Positions 1,313-37,353 of a DNA stretch of 64,000 nucleotides are shown piece after piece. The DNA comes from Woeseiaceae bacterium (GTDB taxonomy: Bacteria > Pseudomonadota > Gammaproteobacteria > Steroidobacterales > Woeseiaceae): positions 1 to 64,000 of the forward strand of contig JAHEFD010000002.1 in assembly GCA_024640345.1 (NCBI GenBank). The letters run 5' to 3'. Made by a program: the position numbers and the translations under genes. Numbering within the stretch: position 1 is the first letter of the stretch; each line of letters opens with the position of its first letter. Below the pieces are notes generated by a model. That model had not been told where the DNA came from. It saw only the letters and a program-made list of their open reading frames with translations, and made no database searches.

Positions 1313-2119
1313 ATGCCGAAACCGTTCATCGTGATGTGTGCACCAAACGGTGCGAGAAAAACCCGGACAGATCACCCGGAGTTGCCAATCTCGGCAGAGG
1401 AACTGGCCGAGTGTGCGGAGTCAATTCTACAAGCCGGCGCTTCGGTTATACACCTGCACATTCGTGACGATGCGGGCCGACATTCCCTGGATGTTAGTCG
1501 ATATCGACAGGCGATGGATGCGATTCGTTCCCGTGTGGGTGACCAACTCGTCATCCAGGTCACCACGGAAGCTTGTGGCATATACAATCCCGCGGAACAG
1601 ATGGCAATGGTCAGGGATCTCAGGCCGGAGGCGGTTTCGCTTGCACTGAAAGAACTCTGCGCCACCGATGCAGATGAGCCGGTAGCGAGAGATTTTTTTT
1701 CCTGGTTGAGAGCAGAGCGCATAATGGCGCAATACATCCTGTATTCACCGGGCGAAGTCGAGCGCTTTGTCAGGCTGCGAGACAAAGGTGTTATTTCGGA
1801 TCGTCGCCCGTTTGTGCTTCTTGTCCTCGGACGCTACAGCGATGATTTGACGGGTGACCCCGGTGAGCTGAAAAGTTTTACTTCGATCCTGGATCCGGAA
1901 ATCGAGTGGGCCGTCTGCTGTTTCGGCCGAACAGAGCAACAGGCTGCTACTCTTGCGGCGTTGAACCAGGGGCATGCCCGGGTCGGCTTTGAAAATAATT
2001 TGTTGTTACCAGATGGCACGACAGCGGCAGATAATGCCGCCCTGGTCAGGCTGGCAGAAAACAGCCGGGAAAAGCGACCGGTTGCCACCGCTAAAGATGT
2101 TCGTTTGCTATTCGGCTAG
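1313..2119 (+). CDS. Beta-keto acid cleavage enzyme (BKACE, DUF849)
   Basis: This 268-residue protein has the length and motifs of the BKACE family, Zn-dependent TIM-barrel enzymes that condense a beta-keto acid with acetyl-CoA, giving acetoacetate and a new acyl-CoA (Kce of lysine fermentation is the classic member). The Zn-binding HxH is in VIHLHIRDD near residue 48, and the C-terminal GHARVGFENN contains the conserved Arg and Glu. The ATG directly abuts the TAG of the upstream aminotransferase. Such pairing is expected if the aminotransferase makes a beta-keto acid that BKACE then cleaves. Exact substrate unknown. It ends 9 bp from the convergent thioredoxin-fold gene. Confidence 0.88.
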   Translation: MPKPFIVMCAPNGARKTRTDHPELPISAEELAECAESILQAGASVIHLHIRDDAGRHSLDVSRYRQAMDAIRSRVGDQLVIQVTTEACGIYNPAEQMAMVRDLRPEAVSLALKELCATDADEPVARDFFSWLRAERIMAQYILYSPGEVERFVRLRDKGVISDRRPFVLLVLGRYSDDLTGDPGELKSFTSILDPEIEWAVCCFGRTEQQAATLAALNQGHARVGFENNLLLPDGTTAADNAALVRLAENSREKRPVATAKDVRLLFG

Positions 2120-2128
2120 CGAATCAGA

Positions 2129-2701
2129 TCAGTCGAAATATTCCGGTGCATTGCCGATCTTCCACTTGATGTTGCAGCCGATACTGGGCTTTTGCACGGT
2201 CGGCACCGCGGAATGGCCCAGGACTGCGTCCAGTGCTGCACGCAAATCTTTGCCCGTAACAGGGATGTTATTCGAAGGCCGGCTGTCATCCAGCTGCCCC
2301 CGGTAGGCAAGTGCCCTGTTGGCGTCGAACAGAAAGAAATCCGGCGTGCAGGCTGCCCTGTAGGCTTTGGCGACTGACTGGTCCTCGTCGACCAGGTACG
2401 GGAATTCGTACCCCCAGGTATTTGCTTCTTCCTTCATTTTCGCCGGACTGTCACCCGGGTGCGTTTCGGCGTCATTGCTGTTGATTGCATAGATCGCCAC
2501 ATCAAGTGGGAGGTAATCACGCCCAAGCAGCGCCAGCTGCTCTCGAATGTGCTTGACGAAAGGACAGTGATTGCAAATAAACATCACCAGGTAAGCGCTG
2601 GCATGGTCACGCAACGCATGACGCACGCCGTTCGCATCGGGTAAGGAAAATTTCGGAGCAGTCGTGCCCAGGTCCAGCATTTGAGATTCAACGGCAGCCA
2701 T
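2129..2701 (-). CDS. Thioredoxin-fold / AhpC-TSA family protein
   Basis: A 190-residue single-domain protein of the peroxiredoxin-like thioredoxin superfamily. After the first beta strands comes FICNHCPFVKH, a CxxC-type redox site (CNHC) in the usual position after the central strand, near residue 43. No signal peptide is visible, so it is probably cytoplasmic. Members of this group are usually annotated simply as thioredoxin family proteins, and the partner substrate is unknown. The start at 2701 lies 15 bp after the stop of the MATE exporter gene on the same strand, so the two form a short operon. Confidence 0.82.
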   Translation of the reverse strand: MAAVESQMLDLGTTAPKFSLPDANGVRHALRDHASAYLVMFICNHCPFVKHIREQLALLGRDYLPLDVAIYAINSNDAETHPGDSPAKMKEEANTWGYEFPYLVDEDQSVAKAYRAACTPDFFLFDANRALAYRGQLDDSRPSNNIPVTGKDLRAALDAVLGHSAVPTVQKPSIGCNIKWKIGNAPEYFD

Positions 2702-2716
2702 TATTGCTCCTCTGAA

Positions 2717-3982
2717 TTAAATCGAAATATTCTGCCACTTTCGCCCACGCCACATCTCGATGAACAAAATAGAATTTAGCGCGCGGCTGCCCCCCTGTAA
2801 AATCCACACGCCCAGCAGGCCGAATCCCAGGAACGGGCCCACCAGGTATGCCAGCGGCAGAAACATGAGCCATTGGGTGCCGACGCTGACCAGCATTACG
2901 CGGCGGGCATCGCCAGCGCCGAGAAGTCCGTGCATATACGCAAAGCCAATGGCCTCAATCGGCATGGTCAATCCCATCAGGCGCATTGGCCAGCGGGCCA
3001 GCTCGCGGGTCGTCGGCTCATGGATAAATATCGAGGACACCAGGTCCGGGACGAGCAGCATTGGAAGTCCCAGGATGGTAAGCAACAGTACGGTAATTTT
3101 CGCAACATCCAGCGTCCATTGATAAGCGTCTTCCGCGTCCTTTCTTCCAAGAGCCTGGCCGACGAGGGTGGCACAGGCAATTCCCAAAGCCAGTCCCGGC
3201 AGGATTGCGAACAGCAAGACCGTAATCAAAACGTTTGCGGCAGCCAGTTCCGGTGTGCCTATCCGGCCAATAATGAAGAACATGGCGACGAGACCGGCTG
3301 CAAAGAACAGTTGCTGTAGCCCTGCGGGCAGTGAGACGCGGACTAGCGAAGCAGTTTCACTGCGGGTAGCCAGGCCTCGCAGGAACCCGTCCTTTCCGGC
3401 ATGCCTGAAGCCCAGGAATATGTAGGTCGCGGTACCGATGGCCATCGAGAGTGCGCTCGCCATTCCGGCGCCGGTGACGCCATACGCAGGCATGCCGAGC
3501 TTGCCGAAAATAAACACATAATTTAGCGCTATGTTGCAGGCGTGCATGATGATCAGCGTATTCATGTAGACGCGAGACATGTCGAGTGCGTTCCAGTAGC
3601 CGCGGAAAGCGAAGTTCATGCCCACGAAAACGATGGCTCCGAGTCTCCATTCGATGTAAGGCACACCAAGTGCAATGACATCGGGATCTTCGTTGAGTAA
3701 CGGGAATGCAGTATCGGCAAGCTGGATCAGCAGGATGGAAAACAGCGGTGCAACGACCAGTACCAGGAGCAACGCAGTGTTAAGTGTTGCAGCGGCCCGG
3801 TCCGGGCGATTCTCGCCTTTTCGTCGAGCAGCACTCGACTGAACGCCAGTTGAGATACCGAGGATAAGCGCCTGGCACATGAAGACGACAAATCCGCCGA
3901 GGCCAACGGCGGCCAGTGCTGCATCACCGAGAAAACCGACCATGGCGGTATCGACGATGTTCAGGAGGTTTTGCGATACCAT
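2717..3982 (-). CDS. MATE family efflux transporter
   Basis: A polytopic inner-membrane protein of the multidrug and toxic compound extrusion family, which exports cationic drugs or metabolites against H+ or Na+. The ATG at 3982 gives 421 residues and begins [16 protein letters not shown], a sequence that in family members lies inside the first helix, so this start looks too short. The frame stays open upstream and encodes a normal-looking N-terminus (PERRSRILALALPIIGG), but no ATG, GTG or TTG exists in the 20-odd codons before it. An ATC at 4051 has a good Shine-Dalgarno sequence (4058-4063) and would give about 444 residues, the usual MATE length. Followed closely by the thioredoxin-fold gene. 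Confidence 0.9.
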
Positions 3983-4057
3983 GCCACCGATGATCGGCAG
4001 GGCAAGGGCAAGTATCCGGCTACGCCGCTCAGGAGTGACTTGAAAATCGATTACGAA

Positions 4058-4063
4058 CTTCCT
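4058..4063 (-). promoter_or_regulatory. Shine-Dalgarno AGGAAG before a possible ATC start of the MATE gene
   Basis: On the minus strand AGGAAG is followed by six bases and then the codon ATC (4051-4049), in frame with the MATE gene 23 codons upstream of its first ATG. The spacing is ideal. It suggests initiation at a non-canonical codon, or a base difference here turning ATG or ATT into ATC. Confidence 0.4.
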
Positions 4064-4092
4064 TTTCTTTTTTGACCAGAGGCGAAGACTGG

Positions 4093-4698
4093 ATGACCTG
4101 GATCAAGACTATCTCATACGATGCGTCCGAGGGTACGCTCCGGAAACTGTACGATCGGATCAAAGGGCCTGACAATAACGTTGACAACATCATGATGGCG
4201 CACAGCCTGAGACCGCACACGATGGAAGGGCACATGGCGATCTACAAGTATGTGTTGCACCATCCACGGAACGAATTGCCGAAGTCGTATCTCGAAACGA
4301 TCGGGGTCTATGTCAGCATTCTCAATCAATGTCGCTACTGTATTGACCACCACTACGCGGGCTTGTTGCGATTGTTACGCGATAACGAACGCGGCGCGGA
4401 AATTCGTTCGGCGCTGGACGCCGGGAATCCGGCAGCAGCGTTTGATGGCAGGGAGCTCGCCGGCCTTGTTTACGTAGGCAAGTTGACGACGGATCCGGTC
4501 GGTCTTGAAAGCTCCGATATAGGAAAACTGCGTGATGCCGGCTTCGATGATGGCGAGATCCTCGAGATCAACCAGGTGGCCGCCTATTTCAGTTATGCCA
4601 ATCGCACTGTATTAGGTCTGGGCATCGAAACGGAGGGCGACATTATCGGCTTGTCGCCGGGCGACTCGACCGATCCGGATAACTGGTCACACCAGTAA
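4093..4698 (+). CDS. AhpD-like / carboxymuconolactone decarboxylase family, peroxidase-related
   Basis: A 201-residue protein of the AhpD-like all-alpha family. The signature CRYCIDHHYAG near residue 86 supplies the CxxC pair and downstream His used by AhpD-type proteins as a redox centre. The N-terminal part (KLYDRIKGPDNNVDNIM and following) fits the 'uncharacterised peroxidase-related enzyme' subgroup. A TTG at 4072 would add seven residues, but the ATG at 4093 matches the family N-terminus better. It is divergent from the MATE exporter, with about 40 bp between the likely starts, so a shared regulatory region is possible. Function is probably peroxide or radical detoxification; the physiological reductant is unknown. 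Confidence 0.8.
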   Translation: MTWIKTISYDASEGTLRKLYDRIKGPDNNVDNIMMAHSLRPHTMEGHMAIYKYVLHHPRNELPKSYLETIGVYVSILNQCRYCIDHHYAGLLRLLRDNERGAEIRSALDAGNPAAAFDGRELAGLVYVGKLTTDPVGLESSDIGKLRDAGFDDGEILEINQVAAYFSYANRTVLGLGIETEGDIIGLSPGDSTDPDNWSHQ

Positions 4699-4815
4699 TA
4701 CTGTTCTCGTCATTCTGTGCAGCACGGCGACGAAGAAACGAATTCCACGCCATTCTACGGGTCGCTGAACCAGGTGCGTCACCCGGTTCGCGTTGATATC
4801 GACGCTGCGTACCTG

Positions 4816-6048
4816 CTATGCGAGCAGTGCCCGGGATTTTTTGACAGCGGCTACAACCCGATCAACATGATCTTCGGTGTTGTATACATGCGGGGACATG
4901 CGAAGTCCGCCGGTTGCTGCTGTAATGATGCCGGAGTCCTGGTAAATCTTGCCCGGCAGGCCTCTCGCGTTCTCGCGAGGAACGCTTAAGATCACAACGC
5001 TGCTCTTGAACGCCGGATTCAGTGAGGACACGAATTTTACATCGAGGTCATTAAGGCCCGCACGTAACCTGTCGGCTATCATTGTTGACCGCCCTTCGAT
5101 ACCGGCAGGTGTTATCGCTTCGTGAAAACCGGCAGCGTCGGCAAGTGCCGCAATCGCGGCGTCATCGCGTTGACCCAGGGCGTCAAATTTCCTGGCGCCG
5201 GCAGGCGCGTCATCTTCGGTCTGGCCCCAGGGAATGCTGACAATGTTCGGCCAGATACTCTCGACGTGATCTTCACGAACATAAAGCAGGCCAACCTCTC
5301 GCGGCCCCATGAACCATTTGTGGGCGCTGCCACTGAACGAGTCCGCTTCTATTGCGCCGAGATTGATATCTACCGCGCCCCATGTCTGGGCTCCGTCAAC
5401 ATGAATATGAATGTCGCTCTTCCGCTTTCGCAGCGCGGCGCAAACTTCGGCAGCGGGTATCTTGAAGCCTGAGATATTGGAGATATGTGTGAACGACACG
5501 ACCTTGGTCCGGTCTCCGACAGCCGCAACGAAAAGATCGACCACCTCATCGATGCTGCCGGTGTCGGTCGGAACTGAAAAGCGCCGGACGGTTGCGCCCA
5601 GGCGCGAGGCCTGTACATCCCAGGCGACGCTGTTGGAAGGGTGATTCTGGTCCCACAGAACGATTTCATCGCCGGCCTGCAGCGGCACACCCTGTACGAT
5701 CGTATTGTTCGCCTCGGAGGTATTTCGCACGATTCCCAGTTCGTCGGCCGAGGTGCCCAGCAAAGCCGCCAGTCGGCTGCGGGCCTCTTCCTTTAACGCC
5801 TCGACGCTGTGCCGGCTCTCAGAACTCAGTGACAGATCGAGGGCCTGCGCGTAACGGGCATGTGCAGTCGTTATGCTGGAGGGCATTGGACATAAATTGG
5901 CCGCATTCATCGGCACATTGTCGTCAGTGAATCCGAAGTCGAGGGGTTTTGGCGCTGCCGCCAGCGCAGGAGCGCCATATCCAACCAGGCTGCCCGCAAC
6001 GGATGCGCCGCCAACAGCCTTCAAAAATTCTCTTCTAGCGATTGTCAT
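4816..6048 (-). CDS. Tat-exported class V aminotransferase / isopenicillin N epimerase-like
   Basis: A 410-residue PLP enzyme of the class V family (cysteine desulfurase and isopenicillin N epimerase fold). The start at 6048 is preceded by GGGGGA and opens with MTIARREFLKAVGG, a twin-arginine signal ending around AALAAA. The first 123 bases of the longer open frame upstream carry no family sequence and were excluded. SGSAHKWFMGPR contains the Schiff-base Lys, and HVDGAQTWG contains the pyridine-contacting Asp. A folded cofactor enzyme sent out by Tat is consistent with PLP being inserted before export. Divergent from the fumarylacetoacetase-family gene with a 73-bp gap. The substrate is unknown; racemase, epimerase, lyase or desulfurase are all possible. 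Confidence 0.85.
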   Translation of the reverse strand: MTIARREFLKAVGGASVAGSLVGYGAPALAAAPKPLDFGFTDDNVPMNAANLCPMPSSITTAHARYAQALDLSLSSESRHSVEALKEEARSRLAALLGTSADELGIVRNTSEANNTIVQGVPLQAGDEIVLWDQNHPSNSVAWDVQASRLGATVRRFSVPTDTGSIDEVVDLFVAAVGDRTKVVSFTHISNISGFKIPAAEVCAALRKRKSDIHIHVDGAQTWGAVDINLGAIEADSFSGSAHKWFMGPREVGLLYVREDHVESIWPNIVSIPWGQTEDDAPAGARKFDALGQRDDAAIAALADAAGFHEAITPAGIEGRSTMIADRLRAGLNDLDVKFVSSLNPAFKSSVVILSVPRENARGLPGKIYQDSGIITAATGGLRMSPHVYNTEDHVDRVVAAVKKSRALLA

Positions 6049-29373: not shown

Positions 29374-31455
29374 ATGAAGCGTTTCATCCGAGAATTGCGT
29401 CGACGTGAAGTATTCCGGTCCGCCGGTCTCTATGTTGGCGTCTGCTGGATTCTGATCGAGGTCTCGAGCGTCATTCTGCCGACGTTCGACGCGCCGGAGT
29501 GGGCGCTGCAGGCCACCATCATTGCCGCATTCGTCGGGTTTCCGATTATGCTGGTGCTAGCCTGGGTTTATGACCTCACCGATCATGGCATCGAAGTCCA
29601 GGGTGACGCTACGGACACAGTCGTTGCGCCGATTGGCGGTCGCAAAATGGACTTCGTTGTTATCGGGCTCCTGTCCGTTGCGCTTGTTCTATCCTTATAT
29701 ATGAATGTCACCAGCGGTCCGCAGGTCATCGAGAATCCGGATCCGGTCACGGTACTGATTGCTGACTTCGACAACCAGACTGGCAATGAATTATTCGATG
29801 GCTCACTTGAACAGGCATTGAACCTGGGTATCGAGGGTGCTTCGTATATCAACAGTTATTCACGAAATACTGCATTGGCCCAGGCGAAAGAACTGGAGCT
29901 CGGCGAAAAACTCGACGAAGAGACTGCCCGACTTGTCTCTGTTCGTCAGGATGTACGCATGGTTCTGGCAGGTGCTATCTCGTCTGACGGCGGAAGATTT
30001 GAACTTAGCCTGCGTGTCGTCGACCCTACCAGTGGCGAACAGATTGCCGAAGCTGATGCGCGCGCCAAGACCAGCGCCGACGTCCTCGGTGCTATCAATA
30101 CGCTCGCGGCGGATATCAGGAAAGAACTCGGCGAGGATTCGCTCGACCTGGACAAGCTGGAAGCCGGCGAGACAGTCACCGCAGCCTCGATCGAGGCAAT
30201 CAAGTTCTACACGGATGCGCAGGATCTCGCGAGGGCGGGCCGGGACGAAGAGGCTATCGAACTCTACGCAAAAGCTGTCGCGGAAGATCCGAGCATGGCG
30301 CGCGCTTATTCCGGCTGGGGATTGTCGGCGCACAAGATCGGACGACCGACCGAGTCAGACGAACAGTGGCAAAAAGCATTGTCGTTGCTCGACCGTATGA
30401 CGGAGCGGGAGCGATACAGAACGCTGGGGCTTTATTACACCGTCGTTTCACTGAATTACAACACGGCTATCGAGAATTACCAGCAGCTGGTTGAAAAGTT
30501 TCCTGCGGACGGCGCGGGCATTAACAACCTCAGCATTCTCTATATCTTTACCGCGCAGTACGACAAGGCGCTGGCGCAGAGCGAGAAGCTGCTGAAGATT
30601 TACCCGGGCAGGACTCTGTACCACGGTAATCATGCGCAGTACGCAATTTATGCCGGCGACATTGTGACTGCTGCGGCCGAGGCTCAGAAGGTCATCTCCC
30701 AGGATCCATCGTTTTTCAAGTCATACATGATTCTCGCCCTTGTTTCGCTTCACGAAGGCGATGCAGCGGCGGCGATCAAGACTTACGCACGCATGGCAGA
30801 GACAGGTACTCGAGGCGCATCGCTCGCCAACATTGGTCTTGCTGATATTGCACTTTTTGAAGGTCGCTACGCGGACGCCGTCCAGATTCTGAACGAGGGA
30901 ATCGCGATGGATGAAGCCGAGAACAACGAGCGCGGCGTCGGTTCCAAGAAAATCGCATTGGCACAAGCCCAGATCGCGCTCGGCGAGTCAGAAACGGGAT
31001 TGCAGACGATTGACGACGTTGCTGCGACTCGAGGCGACGGGCAGCTGGTTCCGTCGGCAGAAATATATTCCGCTGCCGGGCGTTACGACGATGCGTTCGA
31101 AATCGCGGAGCAGTATCGTGAGCAATTGCGGCCAACGGCTCGGGCCTATGCCGACCTTATCGATGGCATCAATGCGATTCATCAGCAGGAGCATGTTCTG
31201 GCGATCGAATCACTGAGGAAGGCGCTGGATTCCGCAGACCTGTGGATCGTCCGCTATTATCTGGGCCAGGCGTATCTTGGCGCCGGCTATCCGGCGGAGG
31301 CAAGTGCGGAGTTCGAAAATCTGACTACACGTCGCGGCGAAGCGGGTGGAATGTTTTTTGACGATGTTCCTACCTGGCGCTACACGGCATCTCTCGATGA
31401 GTGGAAAGAAAAGGCCGGCGCTGCCATTTCCAATCTGAGCGCAAACAACCAATAA
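29374..31455 (+). CDS. Membrane-anchored TPR protein of the adenylate-cyclase-like type, without cyclase domain
   Basis: A 693-residue protein. The N-terminus (RELRRREVFRSAGLYVGVCW) with helices at about 18-36, 46-66 and 91-110 is the module often found in proteobacterial TPR proteins fused to cyclase or winged-helix domains. A TolB/FlgO-like domain follows (VTVLIADFDNQTGNELFDGS, about 123-240), then TPR repeats to the C-terminus. No catalytic domain is fused. It probably acts as a periplasmic or cytoplasmic scaffold in envelope signalling; the precise role is unknown. A bidirectional terminator begins at its stop. Confidence 0.8.
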   Translation: MKRFIRELRRREVFRSAGLYVGVCWILIEVSSVILPTFDAPEWALQATIIAAFVGFPIMLVLAWVYDLTDHGIEVQGDATDTVVAPIGGRKMDFVVIGLLSVALVLSLYMNVTSGPQVIENPDPVTVLIADFDNQTGNELFDGSLEQALNLGIEGASYINSYSRNTALAQAKELELGEKLDEETARLVSVRQDVRMVLAGAISSDGGRFELSLRVVDPTSGEQIAEADARAKTSADVLGAINTLAADIRKELGEDSLDLDKLEAGETVTAASIEAIKFYTDAQDLARAGRDEEAIELYAKAVAEDPSMARAYSGWGLSAHKIGRPTESDEQWQKALSLLDRMTERERYRTLGLYYTVVSLNYNTAIENYQQLVEKFPADGAGINNLSILYIFTAQYDKALAQSEKLLKIYPGRTLYHGNHAQYAIYAGDIVTAAAEAQKVISQDPSFFKSYMILALVSLHEGDAAAAIKTYARMAETGTRGASLANIGLADIALFEGRYADAVQILNEGIAMDEAENNERGVGSKKIALAQAQIALGESETGLQTIDDVAATRGDGQLVPSAEIYSAAGRYDDAFEIAEQYREQLRPTARAYADLIDGINAIHQQEHVLAIESLRKALDSADLWIVRYYLGQAYLGAGYPAEASAEFENLTTRRGEAGGMFFDDVPTWRYTASLDEWKEKAGAAISNLSANNQ

Positions 31456-31484
31456 AAAAACCGGCCACATGGGCCGGTTTTTTC
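31454..31484 (+). terminator. Bidirectional intrinsic terminator
   Basis: The stem CCGGCC/GGCCGG (31461-31466 and 31472-31477, loop ACATG) is flanked by a run of A on the left and six T on the right. It can terminate the plus-strand TPR gene and the convergent minus-strand giant gene. Confidence 0.85.
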
Positions 31485-31503: not shown

Positions 31504-34500
31504 TTATCGCGTTCGCACGCACTGAGTTGCGCCTGCCGTACCTGGCGGCATGATCACTACCTTGTAGTAACCAGCCTGGCCCGGCGTCTGCCAGTTGAGT
31601 CTCCAGCTATAGTCCGACGATGAGTAACGGAAATCGCTGCTGCCGGAATCTTCGGCCGCCGAGCCGTCGCCACTGCCGTTGCTACCGGTTGTGCAATTCC
31701 TGTCGGTAAACGGTCCATACCAGTTGACCATCGGAGAGAAACTGGACGAATCTGCGCGGTTGGTCGTTCCCGCATCATTGTAGTACCAATCCAGAGGGAC
31801 GGTGCTGCCGGCATTGATGTTGCCTTTGAGCCCGAGAACGACGATGTCGTAAGCGAATCTGATCTCGACATCGAACATTACCGTTGTTTCATTTCCGCTT
31901 TGGTCGCTCACAGTACAGGTCGCAACGTCGGCATGAATACCCAGCGGGAGCGTTGCCGAGTCGCCATCACCCGGTAATGAACAGGCGATATCAACGTTTG
32001 TACCGTCAACGATGTCATCGCCGGTGACATTGACGACCAGCTCCGCCTCAAAAACCGTTGCCGGAACGTCGTTGGTCAGGATGACAAACGGTTCATCAAC
32101 GACGTTTGCTGTTGGTGCCGAAGTGTCGACGATCGTCACCGGGAAGCTCACCGCAGGACTGGAATTACCCGCACTGTCAGTCGCGATACAGGAAATCGTG
32201 TTCAGCCCGAGTGCCAGGTTATTGTCGGGCGTACAGACCGCGACGATGGGTCCGTCAATTGCGTCTGTTGCCGAAACAGGGCCCCATGGAGTCGGGCCGA
32301 CGTATCCGCTGGGATCGTTCGCCTCGACACTGAAAGGCTGGGTTGGCAGTGAGCCCGGGTCGATGACCGGGACATCCTCGACCGTCACCGTGAATGAACC
32401 GGAGTCGGTGTTGCCGGCCTGGTCTTCTGCGACACAGGTTACACCGGTTGTCCCTACTTCGAATGGGTACGTGAAAGTGTAAAGGATGCTTCCGCCAGAG
32501 CTTGTAACCGTCGGCGGGATTCGAACGGGTGCTGAACCGACATCGCAATACACCGTGAGATTCGGATTAGGGTCGGTTGCGCTCACCGGCCATGCGATAA
32601 CGAACGTTGTATCACCCGGTGCCAGCACGAATGGCTCGGTTGGCGTAAAGATCGGCGGATTGATACCGCCGATGACCGGCACGCTTGTGTCAGTCACGAT
32701 CACGGATCGAGTGACCTCGGCAGCCATATTTCCGGATACGTCAGTTGCGTTGTAGGTGACCGAGTAGCTACCCACCAGTGACGTATTCACACCCGAGCTG
32801 TCAATCACGACAGTTACTGTCGGGTCGCCACTGTCGGCAGCTGTCGCGCCGGGTTCTACGTAAAGGTCGCCGGCCTCCAGCGTCATCGGGTTCGCGCCGA
32901 GGAGCGTAATGGCTGGAACCGTCGTGTCCTGCACGGTGACGGTACGAGTTACCTGGACAGCTGGGTTGCCGGACGAATCGCTGACGTCATAGGTTACGAC
33001 ATAGATTCCCGGAACATCGTCATTCACGACGTCGCCCGCGATGGTGACACTCAGCGTTCCGTCTGCAATATCAGATGCGGTCGCGCCAGGTTCAACATAG
33101 GTATCCACACCGGCTTCGAGCGTCATTGCAGCGGCGCCGGTCAGCGTAATGGTCGGAGCGGTCGTATCCTGCACCGTGATGGTACGAGTGACCTGGACGC
33201 CTGCGTTGCCGGATGAATCGCTGACATCGTAGGTCACGACGTAAGTTCCCGGCAGGGTGTCATTCACGACGTCGCCGCCGATGGTGACACTCAGTACACC
33301 ATCCGCAATATCAGACGCCGTAGCACCCGATTCCGTATAGGTATCCACGCCGGCTTCGAGCGTTATCGCAGCGGCACCGGTCAGCGTAATGATCGGAACC
33401 GTCGTATCCTGCACGATGACTGTCCGCGTTACCTGTGTAGCCGGATTCAGCGCCGCATCGGAAACATCGTAGGTCACAACATAGGTACCGACGGTTGTCA
33501 CATCGACGCTATCACCACCAATCATGATCAATGAGGTCAGGTCACCGTCCCTGTCGTCCAGCGCCGTGGCGCCCTGTTCGGTATAGGTATCCACGCCAGC
33601 TTCGAGCGTTACCGTAGCAGCGCCGGTCAGGGTGATTTCCGGAGGCGTCATGTCAGGTTCGATGAAGTCGACTTCGCAGACCGGATCAGATTCAGTGCCC
33701 GGCAACTCCACGTCGCAATCGACTGTGCCGCCCGGTTGCGAAAACAGTGCGATACCGGAATTTGCGCTAAGTCCTTCGAGGTCGAAACCCGATGGCAAAT
33801 TAACGAAACGCATCGTAATGATCGTTGATTCGTCCGGAGAGATAACAAAGCCCGGGGTGTCTGCTTTCGTCGGATCAGGATCGTTCACTGACCCATAGAA
33901 TGCCGATTCCAGCAGCTGATCTGGCGTCAGCGTAGAGGCATAAAGTATCTGGTTGTCGACCACGACCTGTGGCGCACAGTACATCGCGCCCGCCGGTGAC
34001 GAAACGGTGCTGTTCATGTAGCTGCGGCGCACGGTCAGCATCACGGTTGCGCCTGAACTGGCCAGGCTTTGCGCCAGTGTCGAGCTGAAAATCGGCTTGA
34101 TATCGACACCCGTCGCTGTGTTATTGGCCGAATCGGCAGTCCAGCTGATTTCCGTATACGGATCCCCCGGAGTCACGTTTTCAAGATCCAGGTTTTCCAG
34201 ATCCAGGTTTTCAACGTCCGCCGCGAATATGGAGACATTTTCGAGGTCGAGGTTTTCCAGATCCAGGTTTGCGAGGTCGAAGTTTTCGAGATCCAGGTTC
34301 TCGAGGTCCAGGTTTTCGAGATCGAGGTTTTCGAGGTCGAGGTTTTCGAGGTCGAGGTTTTCGAGATCCAGATTTTCCAGATCGAGGTTCTCGAGATCCA
34401 GGTACAACAATCTGTTTTCAAGATCGAGGTTTTCGAGATCGAGATTGACGACCCGATTTTCCAGGTCGAGGTTTGTGTAAAGCGAATTCTCGAGGTCGAG

Positions 34501-37353
34501 GTTTTCCAGGTCGAGATTCTCGAGGTCGAGGAAAACAATCTTGTTTTCGAGGTCGAGATTCTCCAGGTCGAGGTTCTCGAGGTCCAGCATCAACGCAGTA
34601 TTTTCGAGGTCGAGATTTTCGAGGTCGAGTGTCGGTCCGGACGCCCCGGTGCTCAAGCCGATCTCTCGTTTTAGTATCAGCTGGTAATACTCCGATCCTG
34701 CGGCTCCGATCAGGTCAATGAGATTGTCCGGATCGTTGGTCTGTACATTTTCGAGCGGTGCAAGGCTTGAACGCAACAATGGCACGTTCGCCAGAATTTC
34801 AGTTCCGCTTTGATCGGTCACTGTGACCACCACCGAGTCGGCGAGGCCTGGGTCCGTATCGATATTGCCGAAATCGAAGACTGTACGCGTGTTTCCGGAC
34901 CCGGCCGGAATCACGACAGGAATGCTGAGAATGGAATCCGCCCCGTCCACGCCGAAGCTGACCATCGAGGCGGCGGGCAGGTTGAGATTAATGGTCTTCG
35001 CAGTCTTTGACCCGTTGAGAATATTCAGCACAAACGTATTACGCTTGCCCTCGGGACGCTTGATCGCTGACGCGACGTTCACGCTGATTCCGGGCACCAG
35101 AGCTGCTGTGAATATATTCTGGTTGCGGGTCAGCGGACTGCGCGGCAATCCCATCGTGGATGCGATTGTGCAAGTGAGAGGCGGGCCATCGACCGTTCCA
35201 TCTTCGCCCTGAAGCGGCAGCATCATGAGTGTGCCCGGGTCGGTATAGGTGCTAGCGCAGCCTTCGCCGGCCACCCACATTTGCAGCGACTCATTCCAGA
35301 CATCGCAGCCTGTGTAGAAGACCTTGCCGCGCACGTTGTGATTACTGGTCCAGCCGGCGTGAAATACCGGTTCCTGCGATGCGAATAAATCGGTAGCGGG
35401 ATTCGGGGCGCTTTGGTTGGGTACCCAGGTGCCATCGAGGCGCAGTCTCGCCGGTCTCGCGAATACCGTGTTGTAGTCTCCTATGAAGCTGGCTTTTCCC
35501 TTTCTGAACAAACGGGCATTCGCATAATTCCATTCGGCCTGTTTACGGGTGCCTGGCGGGCCGTCGGGATCCTGAATGGTTGCGAAACGAGATACACGAA
35601 CAGACGGAGAGTTGTTTTCCATCGACGGATCTGATGCCACCGTGGCATAAAATGTCTGCGGATCGACCGTATAAGGCCGGGGAGTACCACCCACGATCTG
35701 CGCGGCAAACACGTCCAGGTTACGCCGGAGCGGGACGTTGTTGGTGTTCGGCGGCTGGCCCGGCAGTGGCGGCACCGTCTCATAGATTCCAGCCGGCAGT
35801 ATGGCCGCAGAAACCTGCGGGTTCTCGCCTACACCTGGTTCAAGATGTAACACCAGGTCTTCCACGAAAGCGCCGGGGAGTGGTTTCGGCATCAGGTTGA
35901 GCTTGTCCAGCCGGCTGTCGTACCAGGTACAGGTCTCGATGCCGCCAGCGGCATCGCAGGCCGGCATGAACTGATGTCCGCGTTTGCGTCGCCCCTGATC
36001 GTCAGTCTGCGGGTCAACCATCACGGGCGTCGACCAGTTCAGACCGTTTCCGGTCGGCGATGAACGAGTCATCATGATGCGTGAGAAATTTTGCGAAGTC
36101 CGGATCAGGCCGTCCTTGTTCCGGCTGCCGTCCGCATTACGCGGCGCTTCGCCGAAAGAATCAAAGTCGTCGATCGGATCTACCGCACTCATGCGCGGCG
36201 TGTCGGGCTTGTTGCCTTTGCCAGGGATGAGGCATGTTTCTGTCGCGTTATTGCGGGATGCAACGTAGATAGCGAAATCGTCTCCGGTGCTCACTGCAAC
36301 CGGCAGGGCGTTGGTGCGGAAGCGCGCCACACCTGTCGATTGGTTAAACGGGCAAAATTCTTTGACGACCTCGGCTTTGCTGAAAGTGTTGCCGAAATCG
36401 GTCGATAATGAATACATGATCGCCGCAGTTTCATTGTTGTCCTCGAAACGGGTCCAGGCCACCAGGACTTCCTGGCCGAAATTTCGTGTGGCGATTGACG
36501 TGCCCTGGTTTATTTCGACGCTTTCGCTGATCTTCTGCTTGCCCGGCCAGGTGACACCGCCATCATCCGAATACATGCACTCGATTTTCGTGCCGTCGTT
36601 GTTGTCATTACCCACGAATACCGAATAGCAAAGATGCAGCCGGGTTGCGGGAATGCTCTGGACGTAAGCATCATGGAAATTGGCCGGGTTTCGCGGATCG
36701 ACGTACGCCGGAATGCTTACCTCGATGTCGGGAATATTGTCGGCCGGATTTCTCAGCACTGCTTTGAAAGAAGGTTTGTCCAGGAATTTATTGGTTGCCG
36801 TGTTGACAGTCTGAACATCCAGGAATTCAAACGGCGGGCCTACTTCGCGATTGTGTTCGTACCAGCGGGACAGGTACACGCCGCTCGGTTGGGATCCATC
36901 GCGCCAGAAAGCGATGAAATTGTAAAACATCATGTGTGGCACGTATTCCAGGTTGGCGTCCGCACCACCTTTTTGGCCGAGGCTCGGTGTGTCGCCGAAA
37001 TGCCAGGGGTGCATCCCGCTTATCCAGGTCTTGCCTCCGTCGCTGGACATGGCAATGCCAGGGAAAGCTTCGCCGATGCTCGGGTCGTTGACACCGCGGT
37101 AATCGTTAAAACCCATGGCCAGGTGCCCGGGATAAACCGACGACTCGATGCCATCAGCTTCGTTTTGCTGCATGCGCGGGTTGCCGACGTAAAGCCAGGA
37201 ATCCAGCCCCGGCCCGATCGCATTGACGTTCTTCTGCGGTATCGCCTGGGCGAAAACCTGACCCGCGAATGTCAGCAAAAGCAGTACTGTCGCAAAGAGT
37301 GATGCCGAACGTCTTCCACACGAACCGAAGCTCGCTTCCCTGATACCTTCCAT
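31504..37353 (-). CDS. Giant secreted repeat protein: sialidase-like region, LDLEN repeats, Ig-like domains
   Basis: A 1949-residue secreted protein; the signal ends near residue 36 (GQVFAQA) and AGGAG precedes the ATG. Residues about 40-700 contain Asp-box-like turns (SSDGGKTW near 101, YSDDGGVTW near 259, STDFGNTF near 313), suggesting a BNR/sialidase-type propeller. No sialidase catalytic set was recognised. Residues 909-1059 are the LDLEN tract. Residues about 1234-1554 are four tandem DUF5011/Ig-like domains, followed by about three HYR-like domains and a PxKF-like C-terminal module (STVPLDWYYND). There is no LPxTG, PEP-CTERM or obvious T9SS tail. Transcribed alone between terminators. 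It is probably a surface or matrix protein for adhesion or polymer binding; the function is unknown. Confidence 0.85.
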   Translation of the reverse strand: MEGIREASFGSCGRRSASLFATVLLLLTFAGQVFAQAIPQKNVNAIGPGLDSWLYVGNPRMQQNEADGIESSVYPGHLAMGFNDYRGVNDPSIGEAFPGIAMSSDGGKTWISGMHPWHFGDTPSLGQKGGADANLEYVPHMMFYNFIAFWRDGSQPSGVYLSRWYEHNREVGPPFEFLDVQTVNTATNKFLDKPSFKAVLRNPADNIPDIEVSIPAYVDPRNPANFHDAYVQSIPATRLHLCYSVFVGNDNNDGTKIECMYSDDGGVTWPGKQKISESVEINQGTSIATRNFGQEVLVAWTRFEDNNETAAIMYSLSTDFGNTFSKAEVVKEFCPFNQSTGVARFRTNALPVAVSTGDDFAIYVASRNNATETCLIPGKGNKPDTPRMSAVDPIDDFDSFGEAPRNADGSRNKDGLIRTSQNFSRIMMTRSSPTGNGLNWSTPVMVDPQTDDQGRRKRGHQFMPACDAAGGIETCTWYDSRLDKLNLMPKPLPGAFVEDLVLHLEPGVGENPQVSAAILPAGIYETVPPLPGQPPNTNNVPLRRNLDVFAAQIVGGTPRPYTVDPQTFYATVASDPSMENNSPSVRVSRFATIQDPDGPPGTRKQAEWNYANARLFRKGKASFIGDYNTVFARPARLRLDGTWVPNQSAPNPATDLFASQEPVFHAGWTSNHNVRGKVFYTGCDVWNESLQMWVAGEGCASTYTDPGTLMMLPLQGEDGTVDGPPLTCTIASTMGLPRSPLTRNQNIFTAALVPGISVNVASAIKRPEGKRNTFVLNILNGSKTAKTINLNLPAASMVSFGVDGADSILSIPVVIPAGSGNTRTVFDFGNIDTDPGLADSVVVTVTDQSGTEILANVPLLRSSLAPLENVQTNDPDNLIDLIGAAGSEYYQLILKREIGLSTGASGPTLDLENLDLENTALMLDLENLDLENLDLENKIVFLDLENLDLENLDLENSLYTNLDLENRVVNLDLENLDLENRLLYLDLENLDLENLDLENLDLENLDLENLDLENLDLENLDLENFDLANLDLENLDLENVSIFAADVENLDLENLDLENVTPGDPYTEISWTADSANNTATGVDIKPIFSSTLAQSLASSGATVMLTVRRSYMNSTVSSPAGAMYCAPQVVVDNQILYASTLTPDQLLESAFYGSVNDPDPTKADTPGFVISPDESTIITMRFVNLPSGFDLEGLSANSGIALFSQPGGTVDCDVELPGTESDPVCEVDFIEPDMTPPEITLTGAATVTLEAGVDTYTEQGATALDDRDGDLTSLIMIGGDSVDVTTVGTYVVTYDVSDAALNPATQVTRTVIVQDTTVPIITLTGAAAITLEAGVDTYTESGATASDIADGVLSVTIGGDVVNDTLPGTYVVTYDVSDSSGNAGVQVTRTITVQDTTAPTITLTGAAAMTLEAGVDTYVEPGATASDIADGTLSVTIAGDVVNDDVPGIYVVTYDVSDSSGNPAVQVTRTVTVQDTTVPAITLLGANPMTLEAGDLYVEPGATAADSGDPTVTVVIDSSGVNTSLVGSYSVTYNATDVSGNMAAEVTRSVIVTDTSVPVIGGINPPIFTPTEPFVLAPGDTTFVIAWPVSATDPNPNLTVYCDVGSAPVRIPPTVTSSGGSILYTFTYPFEVGTTGVTCVAEDQAGNTDSGSFTVTVEDVPVIDPGSLPTQPFSVEANDPSGYVGPTPWGPVSATDAIDGPIVAVCTPDNNLALGLNTISCIATDSAGNSSPAVSFPVTIVDTSAPTANVVDEPFVILTNDVPATVFEAELVVNVTGDDIVDGTNVDIACSLPGDGDSATLPLGIHADVATCTVSDQSGNETTVMFDVEIRFAYDIVVLGLKGNINAGSTVPLDWYYNDAGTTNRADSSSFSPMVNWYGPFTDRNCTTGSNGSGDGSAAEDSGSSDFRYSSSDYSWRLNWQTPGQAGYYKVVIMPPGTAGATQCVRTR
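32690..33648 (-). repeat. Four tandem ~240-bp units encoding DUF5011 Ig-like domains
   Basis: Four in-phase units (boundaries near 33648, 33408, 33168 and 32928) each encode an Ig-like domain ending in VTRT-VxVQD-TT. The spacing of the first three boundaries is exactly 240 bp. Units 2 and 3 are closely similar at DNA level, and units 1 and 4 are more diverged. This points to stepwise internal duplication of the gene. Confidence 0.8.
34177..34629 (-). repeat. 15-bp coding repeat tract, 23 perfect LDLEN pentapeptides
   Basis: The 453-bp tract encodes 151 residues: 23 exact LDLEN units, one FDLAN, and interruptions TALM, KIVF, SLYTN, RVVN, RLLY and VSIFAADVEN. The runs of LDLEN are 2, 3, 3, 1, 2, 8, 2 and 2 long in N-to-C order. 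The 23 units use 14 different nucleotide sequences, differing only at synonymous positions. The xDLxx pattern resembles pentapeptide-repeat beta-helices but has Leu instead of a small residue at the i-2 position. Confidence 0.95.

Follow-up and report, generated by a model that had tools for sequence, protein, structure and literature searches.

The LDLEN tract of the exported protein described here is one ortholog group's version of a family-wide, lineage-private repeat. In 32 proteins of one gammaproteobacterial order, including that encoded in the window (the whole stretch of 64,000 nucleotides of Woeseiaceae DNA that was analyzed), a tract of pentapeptides is found at the same place, behind a putative sialidase-type propeller, and these tracts have 20 different dominant pentads. 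About 15 of them are clearly unlike, a count reached after merging PDIQN with PDVQN, PLIEN with PLLEN, and the PDQ/PDE group. We propose, with a probability of roughly 45%, that like units stack into a regular rod between the propeller head and the Ig stalk of a two-gene system, in which the second gene encodes a TPR membrane protein.

Architecture of the exoprotein

From its N-terminus the exoprotein contains a signal peptide, a putative sialidase-type propeller, a probable Ig-like domain, the LDLEN tract, a post-tract domain, an Ig/HYR array and a PxKF domain (Table 1). The earlier note had called the protein secreted, which holds in the sense that it is exported, with the signal peptide read by eye from the sequence rather than called by a prediction tool. 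BNR_2 was found in 12 of 17 aligned family members, the window protein itself scoring under the Pfam cut-off, and a profile of the N-terminal region matched sialidases in the PDB weakly (E about 0.002). It is in these weak matches of its N-terminus that the window protein resembles the sialidase-superfamily (BNR Asp-box) propeller proteins, but it differs from them in adding a repeat tract, Ig/HYR domains and a PxKF domain after the putative propeller. The pre-tract domain, which has a similar anchor in paralogues and strands in a low-confidence model, is by inference probably Ig-like, and the C-terminal match to NF038114 (28.5 bits) lies below the cut-off of 35. A 240-bp tandem repeat within the Ig-like array (32903-33435; 2.2 copies, 81% matches) is probably a domain duplication, and an ORF of 201 aa opposite the tract (34069-34674, plus strand) reads the repeat in reverse complement and seems spurious.

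Table 1. Positions in the window of the exoprotein gene, its parts and its neighbor.
Feature	Position	Strand	Basis or remark
TPR neighbor gene, product of 693 aa with three predicted TM segments at the N-terminus followed by a TPR region	29374..31455	plus	25 of 32 exoprotein genes have a homologue next to them
Hairpin flanked by A and T runs, separating the two convergent genes	31454..31484		scan
Exoprotein gene, 1949 aa	31504..37353	minus	exported; parts listed below
C-terminal PxKF (rightmost) domain, residues 1846-1933	31555..31818	minus	NF038114, E 1.5e-6
Array of bacterial surface Ig-like and HYR domains, four stretches of each	31864..33657, limits approximate	minus	domain search
Post-tract domain	33709..34158, end approximate	minus	alignment A1, basis of the family search
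LDLEN tract, residues 909-1059	34177..34629	minus	23 exact units, six interruptions, one FDLAN
Pre-tract domain from LTRNQNIF, probably Ig-like	34700..35133, end approximate	minus	alignable in two orthologues
Sialidase-superfamily (BNR/Asp-box) beta-propeller region	35290..37230	minus	profile and BNR_2 matches

The LDLEN tract and its two orthologues

The number and place of the LDLEN units, as first read from the letters, were confirmed. The interruptions TALM, KIVF, SLYTN, RVVN, RLLY and VSIFAADVEN are all present in that order, but FDLAN, which lies between the last two, had been missed; it and the DVEN end of the final interruption are near misses of the unit. Eight contiguous LDLEN units follow RLLY, the criterion for a pentapeptide repeat being at least eight contiguous repeats. 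Two proteins from two other genomes (L031 and L032) are orthologues that also carry LDLEN, with 60-66% identity to the window protein before the tract and 54-65% after it. The first has 23 exact units and one near unit and the second has 24 and one, and the matching interruptions (window/L031/L032) are TALM/TVYM/TVYM, KIVF/AVLF/VVLF, SLYTN/ALYEQ/ALYEQ and VSIFAADVEN/FTIYASDLEN/FTVYASDIEN, with unit order and number varying between the orthologues.

Different units at the same place

The family was assembled from two sets of regions. From 18 regions, two duplicates (L049 and L050, of L032 and L031) and a fragment lying before the tract (L040) were dropped, and from 17 further regions L096, with a spacer-bearing repeat, and the fragments L098 and L102 were left out; those remaining, with the window, L031 and L032, make up the 32 proteins. 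The dominant pentads are LDLEN, ANLLN, PELIN, PDIQN, PDVQN, PLIEN, PLLEN, LNLQA, PGIQA, PTFQT, PDQFN, PDQYN, PDEFN, PDEFA, PNLEN, PAYRN, PNLKN, PAVLN, PDPNN and PAIFN. Position 1 is Pro in 17 of the 20 and position 5 is Asn in 16, and a manual count puts one of L, I, V, F and Y at the third or fourth position in 19; in PDPNN the Pro is the sole apolar residue. Many genomes are fragmented, so the unit counts may be wrong, and a number of contigs break off within the tract or close to it. The argument is independent of the exact number of clearly different units (about fifteen).

Eight of the 20 units are free of acidic residues, six of them neutral (LNLQA, ANLLN, PAVLN, PAIFN, PGIQA, PTFQT) and two basic (PNLKN, PAYRN). 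The earlier note saw a negatively charged ladder in LDLEN and suggested calcium binding or DNA mimicry among other roles. Because homologous tracts at this place include acid-free units, such a ladder is not kept there, and calcium binding or DNA mimicry is unlikely to be a role that the tracts share.

Many tracts are uniform at all five positions throughout the protein. Inexact units are absent or few in the LDLEN, PELIN, PLIEN, PDVQN, LNLQA and PAIFN tracts and are many in the ANLLN/AALLN, PNLEN/PNYEN and PDQYN/PDQFN tracts (that of L092 is a mixture of PNLEN, PNYEN and others); in mixed tracts the substitutions are conservative (I/V, F/Y, L/F/M). Position 10 is taken by an odd unit (LGFAN, YGFEN or FGFEN) in five 85-residue tracts (PELIN in L034 and L037, PLIEN in L041 and L042, PLLEN in L086), and the 80-residue PELIN tract of L035 has LELEN LGFAN at positions 9-10. 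The PELIN and PLIEN/PLLEN tracts thus have an odd GF-bearing unit and their length in common despite different main units. Another family of the order (f4) includes three proteins (L096/L136, L134 and L135) in which the same place is occupied by 8-residue NPL(I/V)MTRD repeats with variable spacers, two of the three reaching a contig end within it. Among the proteins examined that reach the tract place, none without a repeat was seen.

The family was found in 31 of 396 genomes of the order with the post-tract profile and in 34 of 396 with the propeller profile, of whose matches some (G037, G038 and G056) were left out of the comparison. No occurrence outside the order was found in the class and phylum samples searched, the class samples including a few genomes of the order itself: the post-tract profile matched two of 369 class-sample genomes, both of the window's family, and one of 398 phylum-sample genomes, which is the window's own genome, and the propeller profile matched two of 185 genomes, both again of the window's family. 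One paralogue used as query had no match in viral contigs, and among the plasmid matches listed at least 15 of 32 records begin at query residue 1127 or beyond, which is behind the tract. The earlier note knew of no described family with the exact unit, and we found none either: none of six unit strings occurs in any paper in the literature search, Pfam Pentapeptide_4 remains under its cut-off, and a search by words gave nothing on this exoprotein family among the matches listed.

Age and uniformity of the copies

The DNA of the LDLEN tract is not a fresh microsatellite, since its 23 units are spelled in 14 different ways, with a mean difference of 2.39 in 15 bases. Across 29 of the 32 tracts (L090, L092 and L095 were left out) the exact units show synonymous differences of 0.57-1.11 of the expectation from each gene's own codon use, with values of 0.79 (window), 0.73 and 0.87 for the three LDLEN tracts; exact units were picked beforehand, so that the absence of amino-acid differences among them is by selection of units and the test shows the age of the copies, not an amino-acid rate. 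The ratio of the difference between adjacent units to that between all pairs is 0.78-1.32, and it is below 0.9 in three of the 29 tracts. The uniformity is not the outcome of recent homogenization because the exact units differ at most of the expected synonymous sites, and old copies that still agree in their amino acids point to a uniformity that is itself old and would be selected at the protein level. These facts require an account in which the likeness of the copies counts for more than their particular sequence.

Natural repeat proteins usually keep few positions while the rest drift. Tandem-repeat surface proteins that undergo concerted evolution have repeats that are uniform within and different between lineages, and in this they resemble the exoprotein family, but the exact units of the latter differ at most of the synonymous sites expected.

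The unit also occurs outside the tract. In six of 30 proteins (L038 and L041, in which the sequence does not reach the end of the post-tract domain, were left out) the protein's own unit is repeated exactly in the post-tract domain, against a mean of 0.31 when units are swapped between subfamilies, with none of 5000 swaps as high. Four subfamilies show this recurrence (LNLQA, PNLEN, PNLKN and PDPNN). If a match of at least four of five residues is accepted the count is 6 against a swapped mean of 1.97 (P 0.028). The post-tract domain is without its own unit in 24 of the 30, and the LDLEN proteins reach 3, 2 and 2 of five residues.

A TPR membrane protein as neighbor

The TPR gene and the exoprotein gene of the window lie tail-to-tail, 48 bp apart, and the TPR part of the product should face the periplasm as judged from the positive-inside rule. 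A hairpin between them is possibly a shared two-way terminator, although the scan that gave this one hairpin gave a mean of 0.5 (sd 0.8) in shuffles, a weak excess. The adjoining TPR homologues in the family are convergent with the exoprotein gene in 23 cases, on the same strand in one (L099) and divergent in one (L101), and two further fragments agree (L122, same strand; L123, divergent). The gaps of 24-245 bp reach to the end of the aligned TPR part, so that the true gaps are mostly smaller. Six of the seven exoprotein genes that have no TPR neighbor stop at a contig edge, and for L097 (PAVLN) there was no TPR match within 483 bp and none in a longer stretch (L120). Behind the exoprotein fragment of L122, which starts with PAILN-type units, two TPR-type genes stand in a row (1498-5574).

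A reverse search of 107 family genomes for the TPR protein gave 30 matches in 28 of them (E 1e-60 or better). A tract protein adjoins 22 of these, and six have a contig edge at or within 170 bp on the exoprotein side; for the match in G104 there is no exoprotein downstream and a contig edge upstream, and no exoprotein gene was found in 9 kb around a truncated TPR homologue in G103. In the truncated homologue (L125, 769-2016) the match covers just 258 aa, and the missing exoprotein gene is possibly a loss of the module. Chance adjacency is not likely because the other ten of the 11 TPR homologues in the window's own genome are only 22-36% identical.

The two proteins also diverge together. Among 22 pairs the TPR distances correlate with those of the exoprotein before the tract (r 0.68) and after it (r 0.75), a level reached in 0 of 5000 permutations, although the correlation is confounded with species descent; the pairs come from 22 of 23 stretches with a long TPR match (L122, an exoprotein fragment, was left out), and some TPR starts were roughly trimmed. 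This confounding is broken in one case, since G101 contains two pairs that are 37% alike in the TPR protein and 27% in the exoprotein, and both members of its LNLQA pair have their nearest counterparts in the LNLQA pair of a different genome.

Residues 99-657 of the TPR neighbor match positions 220-792 of TIGR04510 (putative peptide modification system cyclase), but at 154.5 bits against a cut-off of 400 and with the first 219 positions of the model unmatched, which places the protein outside that family. That this likeness might connect the neighbor with modification of the repeat is only a thought.

Comparison with pentapeptide-repeat proteins

The exoproteins resemble the pentapeptide-repeat proteins (PF00805, PF13599; Rfr fold) in their tandem pentads. 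The consensus of that repeat was widened in 2019, and in the form quoted in PMC8145042 it lists Leu at the first (i-2) position and no Pro there. LDLEN fits this consensus at all five positions, the sole one of the 20 units to do so, and ANLLN, LNLQA, PNLEN and PNLKN fit at four. The initial description of the unit as pentapeptide-repeat-like is borne out by this fit, whereas Leu at i-2, which had been expected to give an unusually wide hydrophobic core, lies within the known range. The exoproteins are set apart by scores below the Pfam cut-offs, by the Pro at the head of most family units, by tracts that in many cases are uniform at all five positions and by the place of the tract in a large exported protein. 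Against PF13599, with its cut-off of 38, the three LDLEN proteins scored 19.2, 29.5 and 30.5 bits and an ANLLN protein (L033) 34.4, and neither this model nor PF00805 was above its gathering score in the proteins scanned. Matches by phmmer to designed and natural pentapeptide structures (5.8e-7 and weaker) are possibly driven by composition.

AlphaFold modeled a 450-aa region, with three orthologues, at a mean pLDDT of 41.5 and the tract alone at 50.3, with no residue at 70 or more. At the front of the tract, where the interruptions TALM, KIVF and SLYTN start 19 residues from each other, the latter model has strands that begin at intervals of 19-21 residues; the later interruptions are not 20 apart. 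A Foldseek search with this low-confidence model found nothing (best match E 2.4), and these models demonstrate neither a solenoid, such as the right-handed four-sided beta-helix of pentapeptide-repeat proteins, nor disorder. In mixed tracts (20 runs in 13 proteins) the variant units show no clear period, either at lag 4, where the combined z is 0.1, or at the other lags between 1 and 7, where the largest positive value is 1.54 (lag 6) and lag 7 gives -1.71; stacking of every fourth unit is therefore not seen.

Proposed explanation and its alternatives

In the explanation that we place first, the LDLEN tract would be one ortholog group's rod, set between two domains of an exported protein with a sialidase fold. 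Like would stack on like, in ladders of Asn, Leu and Pro, to give a regular beta-rod, and because of this many different units would serve provided that the copies match. The rod would hold the propeller head a fixed distance away from the Ig/HYR stalk, and any post-tract domain that contains the recurring unit may pack on the end of the rod as a cap. LDLEN and ANLLN would form pentapeptide-repeat-like coils and the Pro-led units a different version of them, and the neighboring TPR protein, predicted to face the periplasm, would be a partner specific to the exoprotein, which it would handle, anchor or sense. We count in favor of the rod the fits to the consensus, the Asn at position 5, the apolar residue at position 3 or 4, the conservative mixed tracts and the synonymous age of the copies, together with the recurrence of the unit, the shared GF unit, the TPR linkage in both directions and the correlated pair distances. 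Against it we count the poor AlphaFold models, the lack of a Foldseek match, the predominance of Pro-led units, PDPNN, the missing lag periodicity, the 8-residue version with spacers, the proteins in which the unit does not recur, the confounding with descent and the exceptions L097/L120 and L125. The rod is placed first because mixed tracts are conservative, LDLEN and ANLLN resemble pentapeptide coils, and the recurring unit could form a cap.

Close behind, because of the spacer-bearing version and the TPR neighbor, we place a possible though on balance unlikely alternative in which the tract is a series of short, similar motifs that all bind one receptor site, the TPR membrane protein being the first candidate. 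The units would be uniform because every copy must fit and would vary from lineage to lineage because the receptor changes in step with the motif. Such an array is consistent with uniform tracts that keep all five positions, likely including exposed ones, with the 8-residue motif and its variable spacers in the three f4 proteins, with the motif recurring outside the tract and with a TPR neighbor that is linked and co-diverging. However, the co-divergence may be shared descent, and the relation of unit charge to TPR charge is not significant (rho -0.46, p 0.075, 16 units). A more elaborate form, which we regard as speculative, is a two-gene recognition system in which each lineage displays its own repeat code on the exported sialidase-fold protein. 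A periplasmic TPR receptor devoted to this code, with a gene that usually lies tail-to-tail with that of the exoprotein, would read the code and co-evolve with it. If motif and receptor co-evolve in this manner, selection would act on how alike the units of the array are and on how well the array matches its partner.

It is improbable that the tract is a flexible or polyproline-like spacer in which length matters and sequence does not. The low AlphaFold confidence would suit such a spacer, as would the 15-17 units kept in the PELIN, PLIEN, PDQFN and PDEFN tracts and a similarity to Extensin_1 (weak and below the cut-off) in four of ten scanned proteins, all Pro-led. However, a spacer would allow residues to drift, and many tracts are uniform while their synonymous sites are near expectation; the unit moreover recurs outside the tract. 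Slightly more doubtful still is that LDLEN forms a classical pentapeptide-repeat beta-helix of the Rfr fold and that its Pro-led relatives are unrelated replacements. The complete consensus fit, the phmmer matches and the 19-residue spacing of the first three interruptions, echoed in the strands of the low-confidence model, agree with this, but the Pfam scores, the spacing of the later interruptions, the lack of a good model and the absence of a lag-4 signal in the other tracts do not. Finally, that DNA slippage made the repeat as a mutational by-product with no role of its own is disfavored and very improbable, for although unit order and number differ between orthologues and synonymous ratios are below 1 in most tracts, the equal units of the window are spelled in many ways and neighboring units resemble each other little more than distant ones do.

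Neither the lineage-private units nor the TPR neighbor of the family are visible from one window alone. A unit that differs wholesale between relatives and is uniform within many tracts amounts to a natural experiment on repeat stacking or multivalent binding, the family is a source of uniform repeat sequences for design, and the linked TPR gene offers a concrete binding test. If the recognition system is true, it would consist of some fifteen mutually private codes within one bacterial order.
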